Source: a virus
Virus record (IMG/VR): IMGVR_UViG_3300044638_000476
Coordinates: 1 to 35,983 of that record
Length of the DNA: 35,983 nt
Direction: 5' to 3' (one strand)
The position numbers were made by a program, and so were the translations under genes. The notes under the pieces are model-generated. The model saw only the letters and a program-made list of their open reading frames with translations. It was not told the DNA's origin and ran no database searches. Numbering within the stretch: the first letter of the stretch is position 1; each line of letters opens with the position of its first letter. Shown here piece after piece: positions 335 to 35,983 of the stretch.

Positions 335-1740
335 CAAGCGGTGGAAGTTCTGGTGGTTATGGTTCCGGCGGAGGTGGCGCAGGTGGCTTTCGTACTGGAA
401 CCGGCTTAGGCGTTACAGCCGGAACTGATTACACGATTACCGTTGGTGCTGGCGGTACGGCTCTTGCAGCAAATAACACCGGAGCTAATGGAAGTAATTC
501 AGTATTTTCAACGATTACTTCTACTGGTGGTGGTGGCGGTGGTGCTGATTTGGGGCCGTCAGCTAGTAATGGTCAAAGTGGTGGGTCTGGAGGTGGTGGC
601 TCTAGTAATTCTAATGGTGGAGCAGGAAACACGCCAAGCACAACTCCGTCGCAAGGAAGCAGCGGTGGCAATGGAAGCGTACCCGGTCAAACTGGTGGCG
701 GTGGCGGTGGAGCTGGTGCTGTTGGAAGTGTTGGCGGAAATCCAAGTGGCGGCAACGGTGGTAATGGAACCGCTTCTTCAATAAGCGGTAGTAGCGTTAC
801 CTATGCAGGTGGTGGTGGTGGTGGGGCTAGATACCAAACTGTTGCATCTGGTGGCACAGGCGGAACTGGTGGTGGTGGCAATGGCTCATCCAATCCTTCT
901 CCGGGTGCAGCGGCAGGTACAGCCAACACGGGTGGTGGCGGTGGTGGTGCTTCAAGTTCTGTTTCAACAGGCGGCAACGGCGGCTCCGGCATCGTCATCC
1001 TGAAATACACCGTCGCATCACAGACTGTCTTTACCTTCAAGTCATCGACCAAGTGGGTTGCCCCAACCGGTGTGACCAGCGTGGATTATCTGGTCGTGGC
1101 TGGTGGCGGTGCAGGAGGTGGAGAAGTTGGCGGCGGTGGTGGCGCTGGTGGATTCCGAACAGGCACGGGGTTGTCTATTACTGGGGGAACAGAATACACA
1201 ATCACCGTTGGCGCTGGAGGTGTAGGCGCTTCTCAAGCCACTGGAACAGATGGCTCCAATTCTGTTTTCTCAACCATCACGTCCAATGGCGGCGGCAGAG
1301 GTGGGTCATCAGCATCAGGACAAACTGCCACTGGCAACACCGGCGGTTCTGGGGGTGGTGGCGCTGGATTTGGCTCTGCTGGCGGCGCTGGAAACACGCC
1401 TTCAACATCGCCGTCACAGGGCAATAACGGTGGCAGCGGTTCTCCTAATGGGCCTTTTTATGGCGCTGGTGGGGGTGGCGGCTCTGGTGCTGTTGGTGGT
1501 GCTGGACAAAGTAATGCTGGCGGCTCTGGCGGGGCTGGTAGCTCTTCATCAATTAGCGGGAGTTCTGTCACTTATGCTGCTGGTGCTGGTGGTGGGCTTT
1601 ATGCGAGCCCAGCAACCAATGGCTCAAGCGGAACGGCGAACACCGGAAATGGTGGCGGCGGCGGTCAACGCGAAAATTCAGGAGCGTCAGCAGGTGGAAA
1701 CGGCGGTTCTGGCATCGTAATCATCAAAATCAATCAATAA
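190..1740 (+). CDS. Glycine-rich tail adhesin with two tandem glycine-rich modules
   Basis: A 516-residue protein extremely rich in Gly with Ser, Thr, Asn and Ala. I chose the ATG at 190 (MSGIMAMLLG) because it overlaps the upstream stop as ATGA and matches the start of the second version at 35036; an in-frame ATG at 166 is less likely. Two modules follow in tandem, about residues 20-277 and 278-516. Each opens with a hydrophobic beta segment (W-x-APTGVT-x-V-x-YLVVAGG) and continues with AGGFRTGTGL, TDYTITVGAGG, NSVFSTIT, a GNTPST-SPSQG strip, an ISGSSVTYA strip and a closing GGSGIVI-K. Long GGGGG runs separate them. This matches phage glycine-rich-domain proteins. Polyglycine-II sandwich adhesins (gp38 of T-even phages) use such runs to carry variable receptor-binding loops. 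A role in host recognition at the tail tip is inferred from this and from the fibre genes just upstream. Confidence 0.75.
   Translation: MSGIMAMLLGRLAAGGGALTVVQTFTASGTWTAPTGVTEVEYLVVAGGASGGSSGGYGSGGGGAGGFRTGTGLGVTAGTDYTITVGAGGTALAANNTGANGSNSVFSTITSTGGGGGGADLGPSASNGQSGGSGGGGSSNSNGGAGNTPSTTPSQGSSGGNGSVPGQTGGGGGGAGAVGSVGGNPSGGNGGNGTASSISGSSVTYAGGGGGGARYQTVASGGTGGTGGGGNGSSNPSPGAAAGTANTGGGGGGASSSVSTGGNGGSGIVILKYTVASQTVFTFKSSTKWVAPTGVTSVDYLVVAGGGAGGGEVGGGGGAGGFRTGTGLSITGGTEYTITVGAGGVGASQATGTDGSNSVFSTITSNGGGRGGSSASGQTATGNTGGSGGGGAGFGSAGGAGNTPSTSPSQGNNGGSGSPNGPFYGAGGGGGSGAVGGAGQSNAGGSGGAGSSSSISGSSVTYAAGAGGGLYASPATNGSSGTANTGNGGGGGQRENSGASAGGNGGSGIVIIKINQ
979..1130 (+). repeat. Left copy of the overlap locus (3' conserved flank)
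   Basis: Matches 35834-35983 at an offset of 34855 with only two differences seen. The offset shift of 9 relative to the 5' flank equals three codons gained in the right-hand copy. Confidence 0.9.
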
Positions 1741-7557: not shown

Positions 7558-7708
7558 GTTGGTATTCCGTCCATGTTTGTCTGACATTGGTTTCGATTGA
7601 CTTGCGCGGGATGAACCGAGTCGGGTCGGACTGATCCTGTTCGCAGATGTATTTCTTGCGATCCCGTAGATACTGCTTTGCTATTTCAAGTTTGACGTTG
7701 TGGTCCAT
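7481..7708 (-). CDS. Small basic hypothetical protein overlapping the HTH gene
   Basis: Encodes 75 residues (MDHNVKLEIAKQYLRDRKKYI...), very basic and hydrophilic. The ATG at 7708 has a strong AAGGAAG SD, and the frame fills the otherwise empty gap between the HTH gene and the RecT gene, so I accept it despite the out-of-frame overlap at its end. It also overlaps the RecT C-terminus by 23 bases. No family is recognised. A nucleic-acid-binding role would fit its charge. Confidence 0.6.
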   Translation of the reverse strand: MDHNVKLEIAKQYLRDRKKYICEQDQSDPTRFIPRKSIETNVRQTWTEYQHEHSKSKQQAASPIRFFDRKIRYQK

Positions 7709-8708
7709 GATCTTCCTTCACGTTGTCAGATTTGCCTTCCTCTTCCCGCATCTGGTGGCCTAGCCAAGCCAGTCTGGTCTGGTGGCCTTGCGTTAGCACC
7801 ACCTTGACTAGCGTGGGGGCTCGCTTGATCGTTGGATCGTTGGCCTCTCGCAGTTCACGCAGGGCTGTCATCCTTGCTCTGGGTGCTGCCCTGCCTGCAC
7901 CAGCGGTCTTGTCTGCCAGCGCGTTGTACTCTTTGAGCCACTCTTCCAATGACGATAGTTCCTGCGGGTCTTTGCGAGGTGTGTACAAAAGCCATCCACC
8001 CCCAGAAGTTTCTGGTTCCTCTGGTTCTGCGACGACTTCTACTACCTCTGCTTCAACGGTAACTGTACCATCGACCACTTCTACAGCGGCTTCCTGATAG
8101 GCAGGTTCTATTACTTCAGGCAAATCGATAGCATCCAATGGATTCTTAGGCGTGATGTCCTTGGCTTCTTGCTTGGCTTCTGCTGGGTAATCCTCTGCTT
8201 CCTCAGTAGTTATCAAACCTTTAAGTGCATCTGGGAAAGCATCGCGCAGGGCAAAACCTCTGGCTCTCATTTGCAACATTCTCTTTGGGTAGCTAGTCCA
8301 CGGCCCTTGCTTATTCCACAAGCCTGCCCTCTTTGCGTCTTCGACTGAGAACTTGGCTGTGACGGGTTTACGGCCTCGTCTGTGGGCGATACAAACCGCG
8401 ATAGGGTTCGGTGTACCTTCGCCCTCAAAGAATTCCTCTACGCCCTCACAGGCTGGGTGTGCCTGCACCAGTGCCATTGCTGCGTCACCGTAGACGGATG
8501 GCTTGCCATTGATGACGCTGATATTTTGCAGTGCCTGCATGGGTGCTAGTCCAATCTCGTTGCCCCATTGGATAGCCACCAGTATGTCCAGTGGCTTGCC
8601 TGCATAGGCTTTGGGTACTAGGTTGGATGCTGCTAGTTCGCCTGCGAAGGTCTTAGCTTCTGAAAAGGTTGTCGGCAGGAAGCCGTTTCTTACTGTCAAG
8701 TTGCTCAT
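7686..8708 (-). CDS. recT: RecT-family single-strand annealing protein
   Basis: Encodes 340 residues. The N-terminal two thirds match the RecT core: FSEAKTFAGELAASNLVPKAYAGKPLDILVAIQWGNEIGLAPMQALQNISVINGKPSVYGDAAMALV..., then MLQMRARGFALRDAFPDALKGLITTEEAED near residues 145-172. The remaining part is acidic then basic, of low complexity, and ends with a Lys/Gln-rich tail. RecT proteins anneal complementary single strands after 5' resection; the matching exonuclease is the YqaJ-type protein two genes upstream. A GAGGA SD precedes the start, which overlaps the upstream stop by ATGA. Confidence 0.9.
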   Translation of the reverse strand: MSNLTVRNGFLPTTFSEAKTFAGELAASNLVPKAYAGKPLDILVAIQWGNEIGLAPMQALQNISVINGKPSVYGDAAMALVQAHPACEGVEEFFEGEGTPNPIAVCIAHRRGRKPVTAKFSVEDAKRAGLWNKQGPWTSYPKRMLQMRARGFALRDAFPDALKGLITTEEAEDYPAEAKQEAKDITPKNPLDAIDLPEVIEPAYQEAAVEVVDGTVTVEAEVVEVVAEPEEPETSGGGWLLYTPRKDPQELSSLEEWLKEYNALADKTAGAGRAAPRARMTALRELREANDPTIKRAPTLVKVVLTQGHQTRLAWLGHQMREEEGKSDNVKEDHGPQRQT

Positions 8709-8917
8709 TTTGTCCTCGCTTTCATCATTGCATCGGCTATTTCATAGGCCATTTCAGACCAAAACCCAGCCAGATTCTTTTGTGGATAGTCTTTTGGGGC
8801 TTCTTGAAAAGCATCGGGAATCATCCCTTGCAAGGCCGCTGCCGCAAAGTAATCGCGCAAGTCCATGCCCTCGTGATCGTCAAACGTATTCACTGCTTTG
8901 AGCGGAAACGCTTTCAT
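8705..8917 (-). CDS. Small acidic protein between RecT and YqaJ genes
   Basis: Encodes 70 residues (MKAFPLKAVNTFDDHEGMDLRDYFAAAALQGM...). The GMDLRDYFAAAALQG segment followed by YEIADAMMKAR is a pattern very common in small phage and prophage proteins located beside recombination genes; its function is unknown. A clear AAGGAG SD precedes the ATG. Both ends overlap neighbours by ATGA, giving a tight translational chain exonuclease, this protein, annealing protein. Confidence 0.82.
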   Translation of the reverse strand: MKAFPLKAVNTFDDHEGMDLRDYFAAAALQGMIPDAFQEAPKDYPQKNLAGFWSEMAYEIADAMMKARTK

Positions 8918-9870
8918 TGTTTTTTCTCCTTAATGGTTAGAGATGATTGCCGAATTGAGTACGCTTCTTTGGCTGGGATGACTCGCTCGGCTGCTGCTTT
9001 GTAGTGGCGCATAGGCCAGCTTACTTGGTACTTCCCGATCTCAGCTTTGGTGGCTGTTTGCATTGCTTCTTTGATACGTTTCTCTCTGTCATCTATGATG
9101 TCTTCGCATTGCTTGATGTCCTGCTTTGCTTCGTAGATGTCTCGCGCCCACTGTTCGAACTCGCCTGCTAGGTGGACTGTGACATCTTCGGCAGTCCCCC
9201 ATGTTCTGTTGGCATCGTCACTGTTGACAGGTGGATAGTATTCAATATGCCTATCTGCTTTCCAGATGTCAAGTCTACGTTGGAAATCGAGCGTGGCTTT
9301 TTCGATAGCTCGGAGGGTGTTTTCGTGTGGTTTGAACAGGAAGATGCGTAGTTCTGTGCCGCGATATAAGACCGCCAAGGCACCCCATTTAGCGCGAGTG
9401 ATATCCATCTGTGCCTGTAGCTGAATCGGACCTCTGTAGAGGGCTGGTGAATGCTCAGGGGAAACAGCAGTTAGTTTCGCTTCCAAGACTCCGCGCCCTT
9501 CTAGTGTGATGGTATCGGAGTCCATGACCATGATTCCGAGATCGGGGTTATTCTGCACAATTACCCCGTTGCCTTCGGCGGTAGCATCAAGGCTACAGGC
9601 AAGCGGCAGCAGTGGATGAAAGCAGGGTTCAGGGTATTCAGTTATCAAATTTGATAGACCTAGCCGGACTGCCGCCATTTCTAGTATCGGTTTTTCGAAT
9701 CTGTTCCCCCATTCCATTGCTTCATTGGTAATGTTTGGCGGTTCTTTGCCGCCGAGTGCGTCAATGGCAGAACTCAGTTCGTCATTAGGACTGCGGTATT
9801 TGCTGTAGCCCATGATTGAGGGCAAACGAGAAGCGGACAGCATCGTGTTGGGTGTAACTTTTCCGACCAT
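8914..9870 (-). CDS. YqaJ-type viral recombinase (5'-3' exonuclease)
   Basis: Encodes 318 residues from the ATG at 9870, chosen because AAGGGG lies at SD distance (an upstream ATG at 9921 overlaps the neighbour). The YqaJ/lambda-exonuclease fold is visible: SASRLPSIMGYSKY near the start, the conserved MEWGNRFEKPI, SLDAT with Asp about 95, and GVLEAKLT with the E-x-K pair at about 130-132, followed by P-IQLQAQMDIT. The C-terminal third is helical. It would resect double-stranded ends to give 3' single strands for the RecT protein, in phage recombination, replication or concatemer formation. Confidence 0.88.
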   Translation of the reverse strand: MVGKVTPNTMLSASRLPSIMGYSKYRSPNDELSSAIDALGGKEPPNITNEAMEWGNRFEKPILEMAAVRLGLSNLITEYPEPCFHPLLPLACSLDATAEGNGVIVQNNPDLGIMVMDSDTITLEGRGVLEAKLTAVSPEHSPALYRGPIQLQAQMDITRAKWGALAVLYRGTELRIFLFKPHENTLRAIEKATLDFQRRLDIWKADRHIEYYPPVNSDDANRTWGTAEDVTVHLAGEFEQWARDIYEAKQDIKQCEDIIDDREKRIKEAMQTATKAEIGKYQVSWPMRHYKAAAERVIPAKEAYSIRQSSLTIKEKKQ

Positions 9871-9883
9871 GATAGACCCCTTA

Positions 9884-10075
9884 TTAAAATGGAAAGATGA
9901 CTCGTTCGATGATGCGTTCAATCATTGAGTGATTGATTGAGTATCCTTGTTGCTGTGATAAGTGCAATAAATGCAGCACTTGGTAGGCATCGGATTCTGT
10001 CAGGTCTTGGTTAATTTCTTGGATGACTGACAGCGATACAGGGATAGATGGTTGCTTGGCTAGGCAGACTGGCAT
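9884..10075 (-). CDS. Small helical hypothetical protein
   Basis: Encodes 63 residues (MPVCLAKQPSIPVSLSVIQEINQ...), mainly helical with Gln, Ser and His, no membrane segment. An AAAGGAAG SD precedes the ATG. It is the first gene after the intrinsic terminator at 10104-10128, and its leader shares the AAACC..AAAGGAA motif of three upstream genes. No known family is recognised. Confidence 0.68.
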   Translation of the reverse strand: MPVCLAKQPSIPVSLSVIQEINQDLTESDAYQVLHLLHLSQQQGYSINHSMIERIIERVIFPF

Positions 10076-10467: not shown

Positions 10468-11112
10468 TTAGGCAGCTAGCTTGATTGAGATAACTTTGTG
10501 CATTTTCTTGCCATGCGCAGGGTAGGCAATGACTTTTACCTTTTTGTCATAACAGGCTCGGCATCCGTTACACTTTCCCTCGTTTTCATAAGCTTGGCAA
10601 AGTGTCATCCCCTTCTTGACATCTTCGGGTGTCGGAATAATCACTGAGCCGTGCAAGCTTTTTGTGTACTCACCTGTCACGCTGTCGGATGAAAAGCGAA
10701 CGGAAACATTCTTCAATGCTTGCATTTCCGACAATACTTGTCTGAACTTCGGGAACTTGTACATCCGGGTCGGTAGCCAATGTTGGCACCAAGGTGTCCG
10801 TTTCATAACCTCTAGGATTTTCTCGGCAAGGGCTAGGGTGTACATATCACCCGAATCAAACCAGCGGAAAAACCTATCTTTGGATAGCTCGGCAACCATG
10901 TCATCCGACCATGTCATCCGTTTCCAATCCTCTTTATTGTGTAGCCTTGGAGCCTTTACATTGGCAAAGCGATAATTGCCTGTCGTTGCATAGCAACCCT
11001 TGCAAGCATCGACGAGTTCACCCGGAGCGGCAACAGAGCCGGGACAGGTATCAATGGCCTGTAAAGACCAAGAGCGGATGCCGTCAAGCTTTGAAGTTAC
11101 TGAGATTTTCAT
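10468..11112 (-). CDS. GP88-family protein
   Basis: Encodes 214 residues resembling the phage 'gene product 88' family. Landmarks are a TCPGS segment, CKGCYA near residue 37-42, RFFRWFDSGDMYTLALAEKILEVMKRTPWCQHWLPTRMYKFPKF in the middle, VRFSSDS at about 137, and a C-terminal Cys cluster (KCNGCRACYDK). The conserved Cys pairs suggest a bound metal or Fe-S centre; the biochemical role is not established. The gene has the AAACCTAAAAGGAAACGAC leader seen also before the 11376 gene. Its early position suggests a role in nucleic-acid metabolism or takeover. Confidence 0.8.
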   Translation of the reverse strand: MKISVTSKLDGIRSWSLQAIDTCPGSVAAPGELVDACKGCYATTGNYRFANVKAPRLHNKEDWKRMTWSDDMVAELSKDRFFRWFDSGDMYTLALAEKILEVMKRTPWCQHWLPTRMYKFPKFRQVLSEMQALKNVSVRFSSDSVTGEYTKSLHGSVIIPTPEDVKKGMTLCQAYENEGKCNGCRACYDKKVKVIAYPAHGKKMHKVISIKLAA

Positions 11113-33992: not shown

Positions 33993-35039
33993 ATGGCACT
34001 AAAAGGCAAACCAATCGCGGTCGGGACTTCTGATACCGATCTTTACACTTGTCCGTCAACAATTGAGGCATCTGTCCACGGCTTAGTATTTGCCAATGGC
34101 ACAGGTAGTGCTGCAACGATTACGGTCAAGGTCTACATTCAAAGCACTGCGGCAACGACCACGATTATTACTGGTCAAACCGTGGCAGCGAATACAGCAT
34201 TCACTTGGCCGAAGCCGATCAACCTGAATGCAGGCGACAAGATTATTGCCAGCGCATCAACTGGGTCAGCCATTGTCTGTTTATACTCAGCTTACGAAGG
34301 CAGTGCTGCACCAGTGGCCGTGGGCTTCACGCCTCGCGGTGCTTGGTCAAGTGGCGCAAGCTACGTTACTAACGATGTCGTCAGCTTGAGCGGCTCAAGC
34401 TACTTGGCAATTCAAGCCAGCACCAACCAAAGCCCATCTTCAGCAACAGCCTACTGGCTAGTGTTAGCAGCTAAAGGTGACGCTGGTTCTGGTAGTGGTG
34501 ATGTTACCGGCCCATCTAGCTCGGTCGATAACGAGATCGCCCTGTTCTCCGGTACTGGAGGTAAGACGATCAAGCGGTCAACCACGACCGGTGTGCTAAA
34601 AGCAACGTCTGGTGTGATCGCTGCTGCTACTGCTGGTACAGATTACGTCGCTCCCGGCGGTGCGTTAGGAACACCGTCAAGCGGTACGCTGACGAATTGC
34701 ACAGCAGACGGGACAAACTCAGTCGGCTACCGCAATGTGCCGCAGTCTGGCTCAGACAAAACGACTTCTTATAGCTTGACCACAGGCGACATCGGTGAGT
34801 TTGTCGGCGTTGGTTCGGGTGGGTCGATCACGATCCCGAACTCGACATTCGCTGCTGGCGACATTGTGTCGATCTTCAACAACACGACCGGCAACATCAC
34901 CATCACCTGTTCGATCACCACGGCCTACATCGCAGGCACGAATACGGACAAGGACACGATGACGTTGGCGACCAGAGGCGTTGCGACGATCCTGTTTATC
35001 AGCGGCACAGTCTGCGTCGTGACAGGGAACGTGTCATGA
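33993..35039 (+). CDS. Tail fibre-associated protein with carbohydrate-binding-like domain
   Basis: Encodes 348 residues. The N-terminal about 110 residues form a beta-rich domain (GLVFANGTGSAATITVKVYIQSTAATTTIITG). Residues about 115-155 (PRGAWSSGASYVTNDVVSLSGSSYLAIQASTNQSPSSATAYWLVLA) match the CBM5/12 (chitin-binding-like) pattern with aromatic residues at W-x(4)-Y-x-x-x-D-V. A C-terminal beta domain (VPQSGSDKTTSYSLTTGDIGEFVGVGSGGSITI...) ends in TGNVS. It probably binds cell-surface sugar. Its last 193 bases recur at the left end of the window. Confidence 0.82.
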   Translation: MALKGKPIAVGTSDTDLYTCPSTIEASVHGLVFANGTGSAATITVKVYIQSTAATTTIITGQTVAANTAFTWPKPINLNAGDKIIASASTGSAIVCLYSAYEGSAAPVAVGFTPRGAWSSGASYVTNDVVSLSGSSYLAIQASTNQSPSSATAYWLVLAAKGDAGSGSGDVTGPSSSVDNEIALFSGTGGKTIKRSTTTGVLKATSGVIAAATAGTDYVAPGGALGTPSSGTLTNCTADGTNSVGYRNVPQSGSDKTTSYSLTTGDIGEFVGVGSGGSITIPNSTFAAGDIVSIFNNTTGNITITCSITTAYIAGTNTDKDTMTLATRGVATILFISGTVCVVTGNVS

Positions 35040-35180
35040 GTGGCATTATGGCAATGCTGTTGGGCAGGCTTGCTGCTGGTGGCGGCGCACTGACCGTTGT
35101 CCAAACCTTTACCGCATCTGGCACTTGGACTGCACCTACTGGCGTGACCGAAGTTGAGTACCTTGTTGTCGCTGGTGGTG
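34847..35180 (+). repeat. Right copy of the overlap locus (5' conserved flank)
   Basis: Partner of 1-334. It holds the end of the carbohydrate-binding-like gene and the start of the adhesin. Confidence 0.9.
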
Positions 35181-35983
35181 GTGGCGGCGGCGGTGACAGA
35201 GGAGGCGCAGGTGGGGCTGGTGGATATAGAACGGGTACTGGATTATCTGTTACAGCAGGAACTGATTACACCGTAACTGTTGGTGGCGGCGGTGCTGCTA
35301 GTGCTACTACTGGCAATTCAGGCTCAAATTCTGTGTTTTCAACTATTACGTCTAACGGCGGTGGGGCTGGTGGTTATTGGAATACGAACGGAACTGCTGG
35401 CGGTTCCGGTGGTGGTGGCGGTGGAGGCGGTGCTGCTGTAACAGGTGGGGCAGGAAACACACCATCAACTTCACCCTCGCAAGGTAGCAATGGTGGAAAT
35501 GGCGCAGATGACACAATAAGTTGGGGCGGTGCTGGTGGTGGCGGTGGTGGTGCTAGTGCTGTTGGAAGTGCGGCTCCAGCTACAAATACTGGTGGTGCAG
35601 GAGGCAATGGAACCGCATCAACTATTTCAGGCTCATCTGTAACTTATGCAGGTGGCGGTGGCGGTGGTGCGGGTAATCCTTCTCCTGCTTCTGGTACTGG
35701 TGGTGCAGGAGGCACAGGCGGTGGTGGTCGAGGTGGAGCAACACTTACACCTGAAAGTGGGACTGCTAACACAGGTGGTGGCGGTGGTGGAGGCGCAGGA
35801 AATCATCCCACTGCTGGATATACATCAGGCGCAGGCGGCTCCGGTATCGTCATCCTGAAATACACCGTCGCATCGCAGACTGTCTTTACCTTCAAGTCAT
35901 CGACCAAGTGGGTTGCCCCAACCGGTGTGACCAGCGTGGATTATCTGGTCGTGGCTGGTGGCGGTGCAGGAGGTGGAGAAGTT
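35036..35983 (+). CDS. Glycine-rich tail adhesin, variant copy, truncated by the window end
   Basis: Starts ATG 35036 (ATGA overlap) and is open to the window end, 316 codons so far. It has the same N-terminus (MSGIMAMLLGRLAAGGGALTVV) and first beta segment as the 190-1740 gene and the same second-module start from 35834. The interior of the first module (35181-35833) differs greatly in the glycine-rich strips but keeps the anchor strips (GSNSVFSTIT, GNTPSTSPSQG, ISGSSVTYAGG). Function as for 190-1740. Confidence 0.75.
   Translation, partial: MSGIMAMLLGRLAAGGGALTVVQTFTASGTWTAPTGVTEVEYLVVAGGGGGGGDRGGAGGAGGYRTGTGLSVTAGTDYTVTVGGGGAASATTGNSGSNSVFSTITSNGGGAGGYWNTNGTAGGSGGGGGGGGAAVTGGAGNTPSTSPSQGSNGGNGADDTISWGGAGGGGGGASAVGSAAPATNTGGAGGNGTASTISGSSVTYAGGGGGGAGNPSPASGTGGAGGTGGGGRGGATLTPESGTANTGGGGGGGAGNHPTAGYTSGAGGSGIVILKYTVASQTVFTFKSSTKWVAPTGVTSVDYLVVAGGGAGGGEV
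35834..35983 (+). repeat. Right copy of the overlap locus (3' conserved flank)
   Basis: Partner of 979-1130. The window ends within the start of the adhesin's second module. Confidence 0.9.

Follow-up and report, generated by a model that had tools for sequence, protein, structure and literature searches.

A freshwater phage adhesin gene built from two tandem glycine-rich modules appears to be diversified by the exchange of whole modules, and the two versions of this gene found at the ends of a single metagenomic contig represent one locus read from two haplotypes and not a pair of genes. The window, that is the whole stretch of DNA analysed here, covers a virus record from end to end (35,983 bp, class 'linear'). 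Its end overlaps its own start; among relatives the cassette at the heart of each module is decoupled from the genomic background, common cassettes recur in unrelated backgrounds, and the tracts exchanged are whole units with edges in the surrounding conserved sequence. Since near-identical domains sit in otherwise unrelated phages, these phages appear to change their grip by trading whole domains.

The explanation that we favour, and hold as a whole to be very probable, combines haplotype overlap with homologous exchange of whole modules. The contig would have circled a genome of ~34.8 kb and continued past its start, so that one adhesin locus was read as two haplotypes. The interior of each module (~600-700 nt) would be an exchangeable allele, a conserved glycine scaffold carrying about nine variable loops, and homologous recombination would carry alleles between phages as whole units, crossing over in the conserved N-terminal anchor, the inter-module linker or the gene end. 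Purifying selection would preserve the protein within an allele, in which case new variants would arise mainly by swapping and not by point mutation, and swaps drawn from a large allele pool may alter host range.

Architecture and surroundings of the adhesin gene

The complete adhesin gene (haplotype A) occupies positions 190-1740 and is an ORF for a protein of 516 aa in which two Gly_rich_2 (PF21722) modules stand in tandem; it lies on the plus strand, as do all of its parts given below and their haplotype B copies. The PF21722 match to the haplotype A protein falls in two stretches (E 2.9e-54, 184.9 bits against a cut-off of 24.3), both modules are members of this family, and it is the sole Pfam family reported; an NCBIfam search gave no match. 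Haplotype B (35036-35983; PF21722 E 1.8e-30) is truncated by the contig end. The gene comprises an N-terminal anchor (TVVQTF..PTGVTEVEYLVVAGG) at 247-333, copied in haplotype B at 35093-35179; the module-1 cassette, as allele A at 334-978 and allele B at 35180-35833; the inter-module linker at 979-1107, copied at 35834-35962; the module-2 cassette at 1108-1701; and a C-terminal anchor (GGSGIVIIKINQ and the stop) at 1702-1740. In an alignment of 73 relatives, the glycine scaffold of each module is invariant, and variability is concentrated in about nine loops that separate the glycine runs. Module 2 is hypervariable among related phages like module 1, a property that the first-pass annotation of this DNA had missed.

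AlphaFold2 models of the full adhesin (pLDDT 91, pTM 0.83) and of haplotype B module 1 (pLDDT 87, pTM 0.86) show the same strand pattern. A Foldseek search of the PDB placed the Pam3 fibre and the Bxb1 tail tip closest among solved folds, and a sequence search of solved structures returned only weak monobody/fibronectin matches. Together with the variable loops and the location among tail genes, the predicted fold suggests that the modules probably bind host receptors.

Upstream lies a tail-fibre-like gene with a CBM_5_12 domain (33993-35039, plus strand), which is strongly mosaic, with identity often of 45-60% between loci that have a module-1 cassette in common. The adhesin is followed by a small gene and then by a 2OG-Fe(II) oxygenase (phrog_81, 1994-2596), which in many relatives stands directly downstream of the adhesin. 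A GP88-family protein (PF17338) is encoded at 10468-11112 on the minus strand. The one isolate with the adhesin, DSL-LC04 (L313, OR003939), has a circular genome of 61.5 kb and is a possible experimental system; its local order of adhesin, small gene, 2OG-Fe(II) oxygenase and small gene is that of the window. Its adhesin homologue has 562 aa and two modules, and its cassettes have no close match among the fetched alleles.

Cassettes in relatives and the edges of exchange

We fetched about 310 loci (L-numbers are locus labels), and the relatives used to detect exchange are all metagenome contigs. Exact-DNA scans of viral_contigs with the window gene start and the linker gave no match, and near-identical records may be absent there. 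Two modules are present in 107 of 119 complete adhesin genes in the first locus set. The adhesins of L101, L106, L127, L131 and L148 contain three or four, which suggests module gain and loss. Tandem adjacent adhesin genes occur in L094, L097, L111, L125, L133, L136, L139, L141, L142 and L145; these have two modules each and differ in their N-terminal parts.

Across 722 locus pairs, the median identity of module 1 stayed at 0.61-0.62 over the whole span of background identity from under 0.6 to 0.97, and module 2 was independent of background in the same way; the linker had an identity of 0.82-0.91. Because module identity is flat across background identity, cassette and background are decoupled. 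Cassettes were in common as a rule solely at a background identity of at least 0.97, mostly where one phage had been sampled twice, and the window A/B pair is an exception, with a near-identical background and differing cassettes. The 396 modules sampled fall into 355 allele classes, far from saturation. The allele A class is common to L082, L083 and L085, and the allele B class to L014 at 82%. Diversity along the gene in these alignments is far from uniform, in keeping with the hypervariable cassette that had been described from the window alone.

Near-identical cassettes were found in backgrounds that are otherwise unrelated. Window allele A is 98.6% identical over 645 bp to module 1 of L163/L060, with identity of 71% upstream and 62% further downstream. 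L082, L083 and L085, from three metagenomes, have a cassette that is 100% identical over 645 bp and upstream sequence of 49-62% identity, and L121/L128 have one of 99.7%. Module 2 is exchanged as well, at 100% in L069/L180 and 99.8% in L092/L103, again in unrelated backgrounds, with L079/L086 as a further case. Alleles also change position: module 2 of L233 corresponds to module 1 of L244 (94.8%), and module 1 of L101 to module 3 of L226 (93.9%). The modules thus behave as flexible allelic modules, near-identical variants standing in different backgrounds with sharp edges, and the whole-cassette exchange within a common background proposed in the first-pass annotation is borne out. A role of module 2 as donor for the difference between A and B finds no support, as module 1 of either haplotype is only 64-65% identical to it in amino acids, although cassettes do move between positions among relatives. 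Codon differences within 11 exchanged-cassette pairs number 192 synonymous and 47 nonsynonymous, and this mostly synonymous change implies that alleles are conserved once made.

In exchanges whose tract is at least 98% identical, the distinct left edges, six in number, all lie at -83 to +1 relative to the cassette start, which places the left crossover zone of single-module exchanges in the N-terminal anchor. Seven right edges lie at +11 to +141 past the cassette end, in the linker, the second crossover zone, or at the gene end, where module-2 exchanges have edges at +14 and +23 by the C-terminal anchor. The right edge of L079/L086 is 702 nt downstream, and a few near-identical pairs that are seemingly one phage have edges farther out, at -227, -344 and +685. 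No edge falls inside the cassette in the set of at least 98% identity. At identities under 98%, computed edges are intra-cassette in a few pairs (L104/L157, L194/L213, L101/L226), and occasional internal crossovers may take place. Partial cassette sharing (at least 80 nt at no less than 92%) was seen in 0 cases, against 38-40 full-length near-identical matches. Together with the clear edges in the outer anchor and linker, this count speaks against the earlier proposal that the internal strips NSVFSTIT, GNTPST-SPSQG and ISGSSVTYA act as recombination tracts; they are conserved scaffold of the family.

At conserved 4-fold residues the same codon is used at a frequency of 0.56 in the linker, compared with 0.38 in the cassettes, 0.41 in the downstream oxygenase and 0.39 in the upstream gene, among pairs that are not independent. 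This excess in the linker is as expected from homogenisation by recombination; another DNA-level constraint is possible.

The main rival to module exchange is chimeric assembly, in which different phages are joined at the conserved linker to produce false mosaics. The linker is indeed the longest common stretch in the gene, and 10 of the 21 right contig ends that lie within the gene fall in the linker zone (Poisson p ~0.007, the zone having been chosen post hoc), a mild excess that also fits coexisting haplotypes. We nevertheless consider chimeras unlikely. The left anchor shares just 7-19 exact nt in L066/L188, L233/L244, L101/L226, L092/L103 and L159/L181, too short for typical assembly joins, and the common cassettes often carry scattered, mostly synonymous changes, so they are not copies of one sequence. 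Moreover, one cassette was recovered from three metagenomes with three backgrounds.

The contig overlap and its two haplotypes

The window end (34,848-35,983) repeats the window start (2-1,128), and the last 108 nt (35876-35983) are an exact repeat of 1,021-1,128; we know of no standard assembler k-mer length that fits this 108-nt tail. The repeat takes in the 3' end of the upstream tail gene (34848-35035, plus strand, repeated at 2-189) and halts at both contig ends, indicating that the contig overran its own start. The implied circle length is 34,846 bp, and the simplest reading is that the contig circled a closed or permuted genome of this length and met a second haplotype. The two versions on this one contig suggest that A and B may coexist in one sample.

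The first-pass annotation had reported two versions of the cassette in one assembly, and both are present at the positions it gave, diverging from 335 (35,181) to 978 (35,833); they are not separate genes, given that the contig end overlaps the start. The near-identical flanks and strongly divergent, in-frame interiors that it described are equally real. The left flank (2-334) has 10 mismatches, an eleventh being contig base 1, and the right flank (979-1128) has 2. Flank identity is 97-99% with 0 amino acid changes, all codon differences there (6+4+2) being synonymous. Between the flanks, the interiors at 335-978 and 35,181-35,833 are ~60% identical and differ in length by 9 nt, with 70 nonsynonymous codon differences (70 amino acid changes) and 74 synonymous ones.

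Two real adhesin copies per genome, arising by duplication or as imperfect terminal repeats, would also place both versions on one contig, and tandem adhesin genes do exist in some relatives (e.g. L094, L111, L136). We regard this as quite improbable, because the repeat extends into the 3' part of the upstream gene and runs out where the contig does on either side, as a wrap-around would, and because 34,846 bp agrees with the size of the nearest cultured relative, MEP301 (portal protein, 71% aa), whose assembly is a circular contig of 34,774 bp (PMC8024684). In addition, the upstream flank occurs twice in just 1 of 15 matching relatives, as two partial, weaker matches, and the tandem genes of relatives adjoin each other and differ at their 5' ends.

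Fast diversification of the loops by point mutation under positive selection would account for variability that sits between the glycine runs, but is very improbable. The conserved glycines of the A and B interiors use the same codon in 33 of 73 cases, a synonymous divergence of the scaffold at the level of unrelated alleles beside flanks that are near identical; changes within an allele class are mostly synonymous, and identical cassettes occur in unrelated backgrounds. Programmed diversification, which a variable region beside constant flanks in a tail gene might suggest, can be set aside as extremely improbable, as the phage has no RVT_1, resolvase or tyrosine/phage integrase match even at E 10, and the window has no inverted repeats of at least 40 nt and no template copy of the variable region apart from the contig overlap. 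Both a diversity-generating retroelement (reverse transcriptase with template repeat) and an invertible or site-specific tail-fibre switch or shuffling system (serine or tyrosine recombinase, long inverted repeats) were rejected on these searches.

Homologous exchange of whole modules could be served by genes of the phage itself. A RecT-like ssDNA-annealing protein (7686-8708; PF03837; phrog_561 E 2.1e-46) and a RecE/YqaJ-like exonuclease (8914-9921; phrog_434 E 1.3e-27; PF09588 just under cut-off) are encoded on the minus strand. Such a pair could in principle suffice for short-homology recombination, and we infer that it may carry out the exchange. A broader proposal, that the modules form a widespread, multi-genus adhesin 'cartridge' system with a very large common pool of whole modules fitting either position, a linker tract conserved at the DNA level and perhaps service by RecT and the exonuclease, is tentative and at present rather doubtful.

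Relation to known systems

These data offer a direct and countable natural view of a possible way for uncultured freshwater phages to alter their host specificity, with the trading of complete, putatively receptor-binding domains between distant phages as the proposed route. As cassette-sharing phage pairs are now identified, it becomes possible to test how fast exchange proceeds, which rules crossovers follow and how the module allele relates to the host strain. They also show why adhesin genes of this kind break or wrap metagenome assemblies.

It is established that gp38 adhesins swap specificity by recombining between conserved motifs (Tetart 1998, cited in PMC12529663 and PMC7468147), and the gp38 of S16 and PP01 contains a PGII sandwich (PMC12892980). 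T-even gp38 is located at the tip of the tail fibre and recognises a receptor in the outer membrane. Like T-even gp38, the window adhesin has hypervariable loops within conserved glycine-rich motifs and appears to be exchanged naturally through recombination at conserved sequence. The comparison with gp38 made in the first-pass annotation is therefore apt for the mechanism, and its description of a 'distinct system' goes too far, such swapping being established already for gp38 (PMC12529663). In contrast to gp38, the window adhesin has no gp38 Pfam match, S16 gp38 is absent from the Foldseek PDB matches of both models, and the unit exchanged within the two tandem modules is a whole module of ~215 aa with edges in the outer linkers. 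The exchange would work like gp38 swapping; judged by profile and predicted fold, the protein is not a gp38.

The nearest solved fold is the fibre gp24 of cyanophage Pam3 (7ypx, E 2e-4 and 4e-7), which has TNF-like and glycine-rich receptor-binding domains according to the accessible text of PMC9608196. In gp24, strands of a beta-sandwich alternate with glycine-rich stretches and the tip is variable, an arrangement that the modelled window adhesin may share. TM scores of 0.28-0.54, varying with model and normalisation, indicate folds that are similar, not close. Unlike the window adhesin, gp24 as presented in that text has a single such domain behind a helical shaft, and no swapping is described there. 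The Gly_rich_2 (PF21722) model in Pfam carries no function, and no mention of the accession was found in the literature searched.

Cryoconite phages with near-identical core genomes have divergent variants of host-recognition genes, and near-identical variants recur in other combinations, from which recombination was inferred (Bellas 2020, PMC7468147). There the unit is the gene, whereas in the window it is an intragenic domain, with two independent units per gene and a conserved linker as crossover zone. Adhesin swapping in gp38 is thus established, and gene-level shuffling of alleles in natural phages has been described (PMC7468147); what is new here is the whole intragenic module as the unit, two to a gene, together with exchange between positions and the size of the pool.
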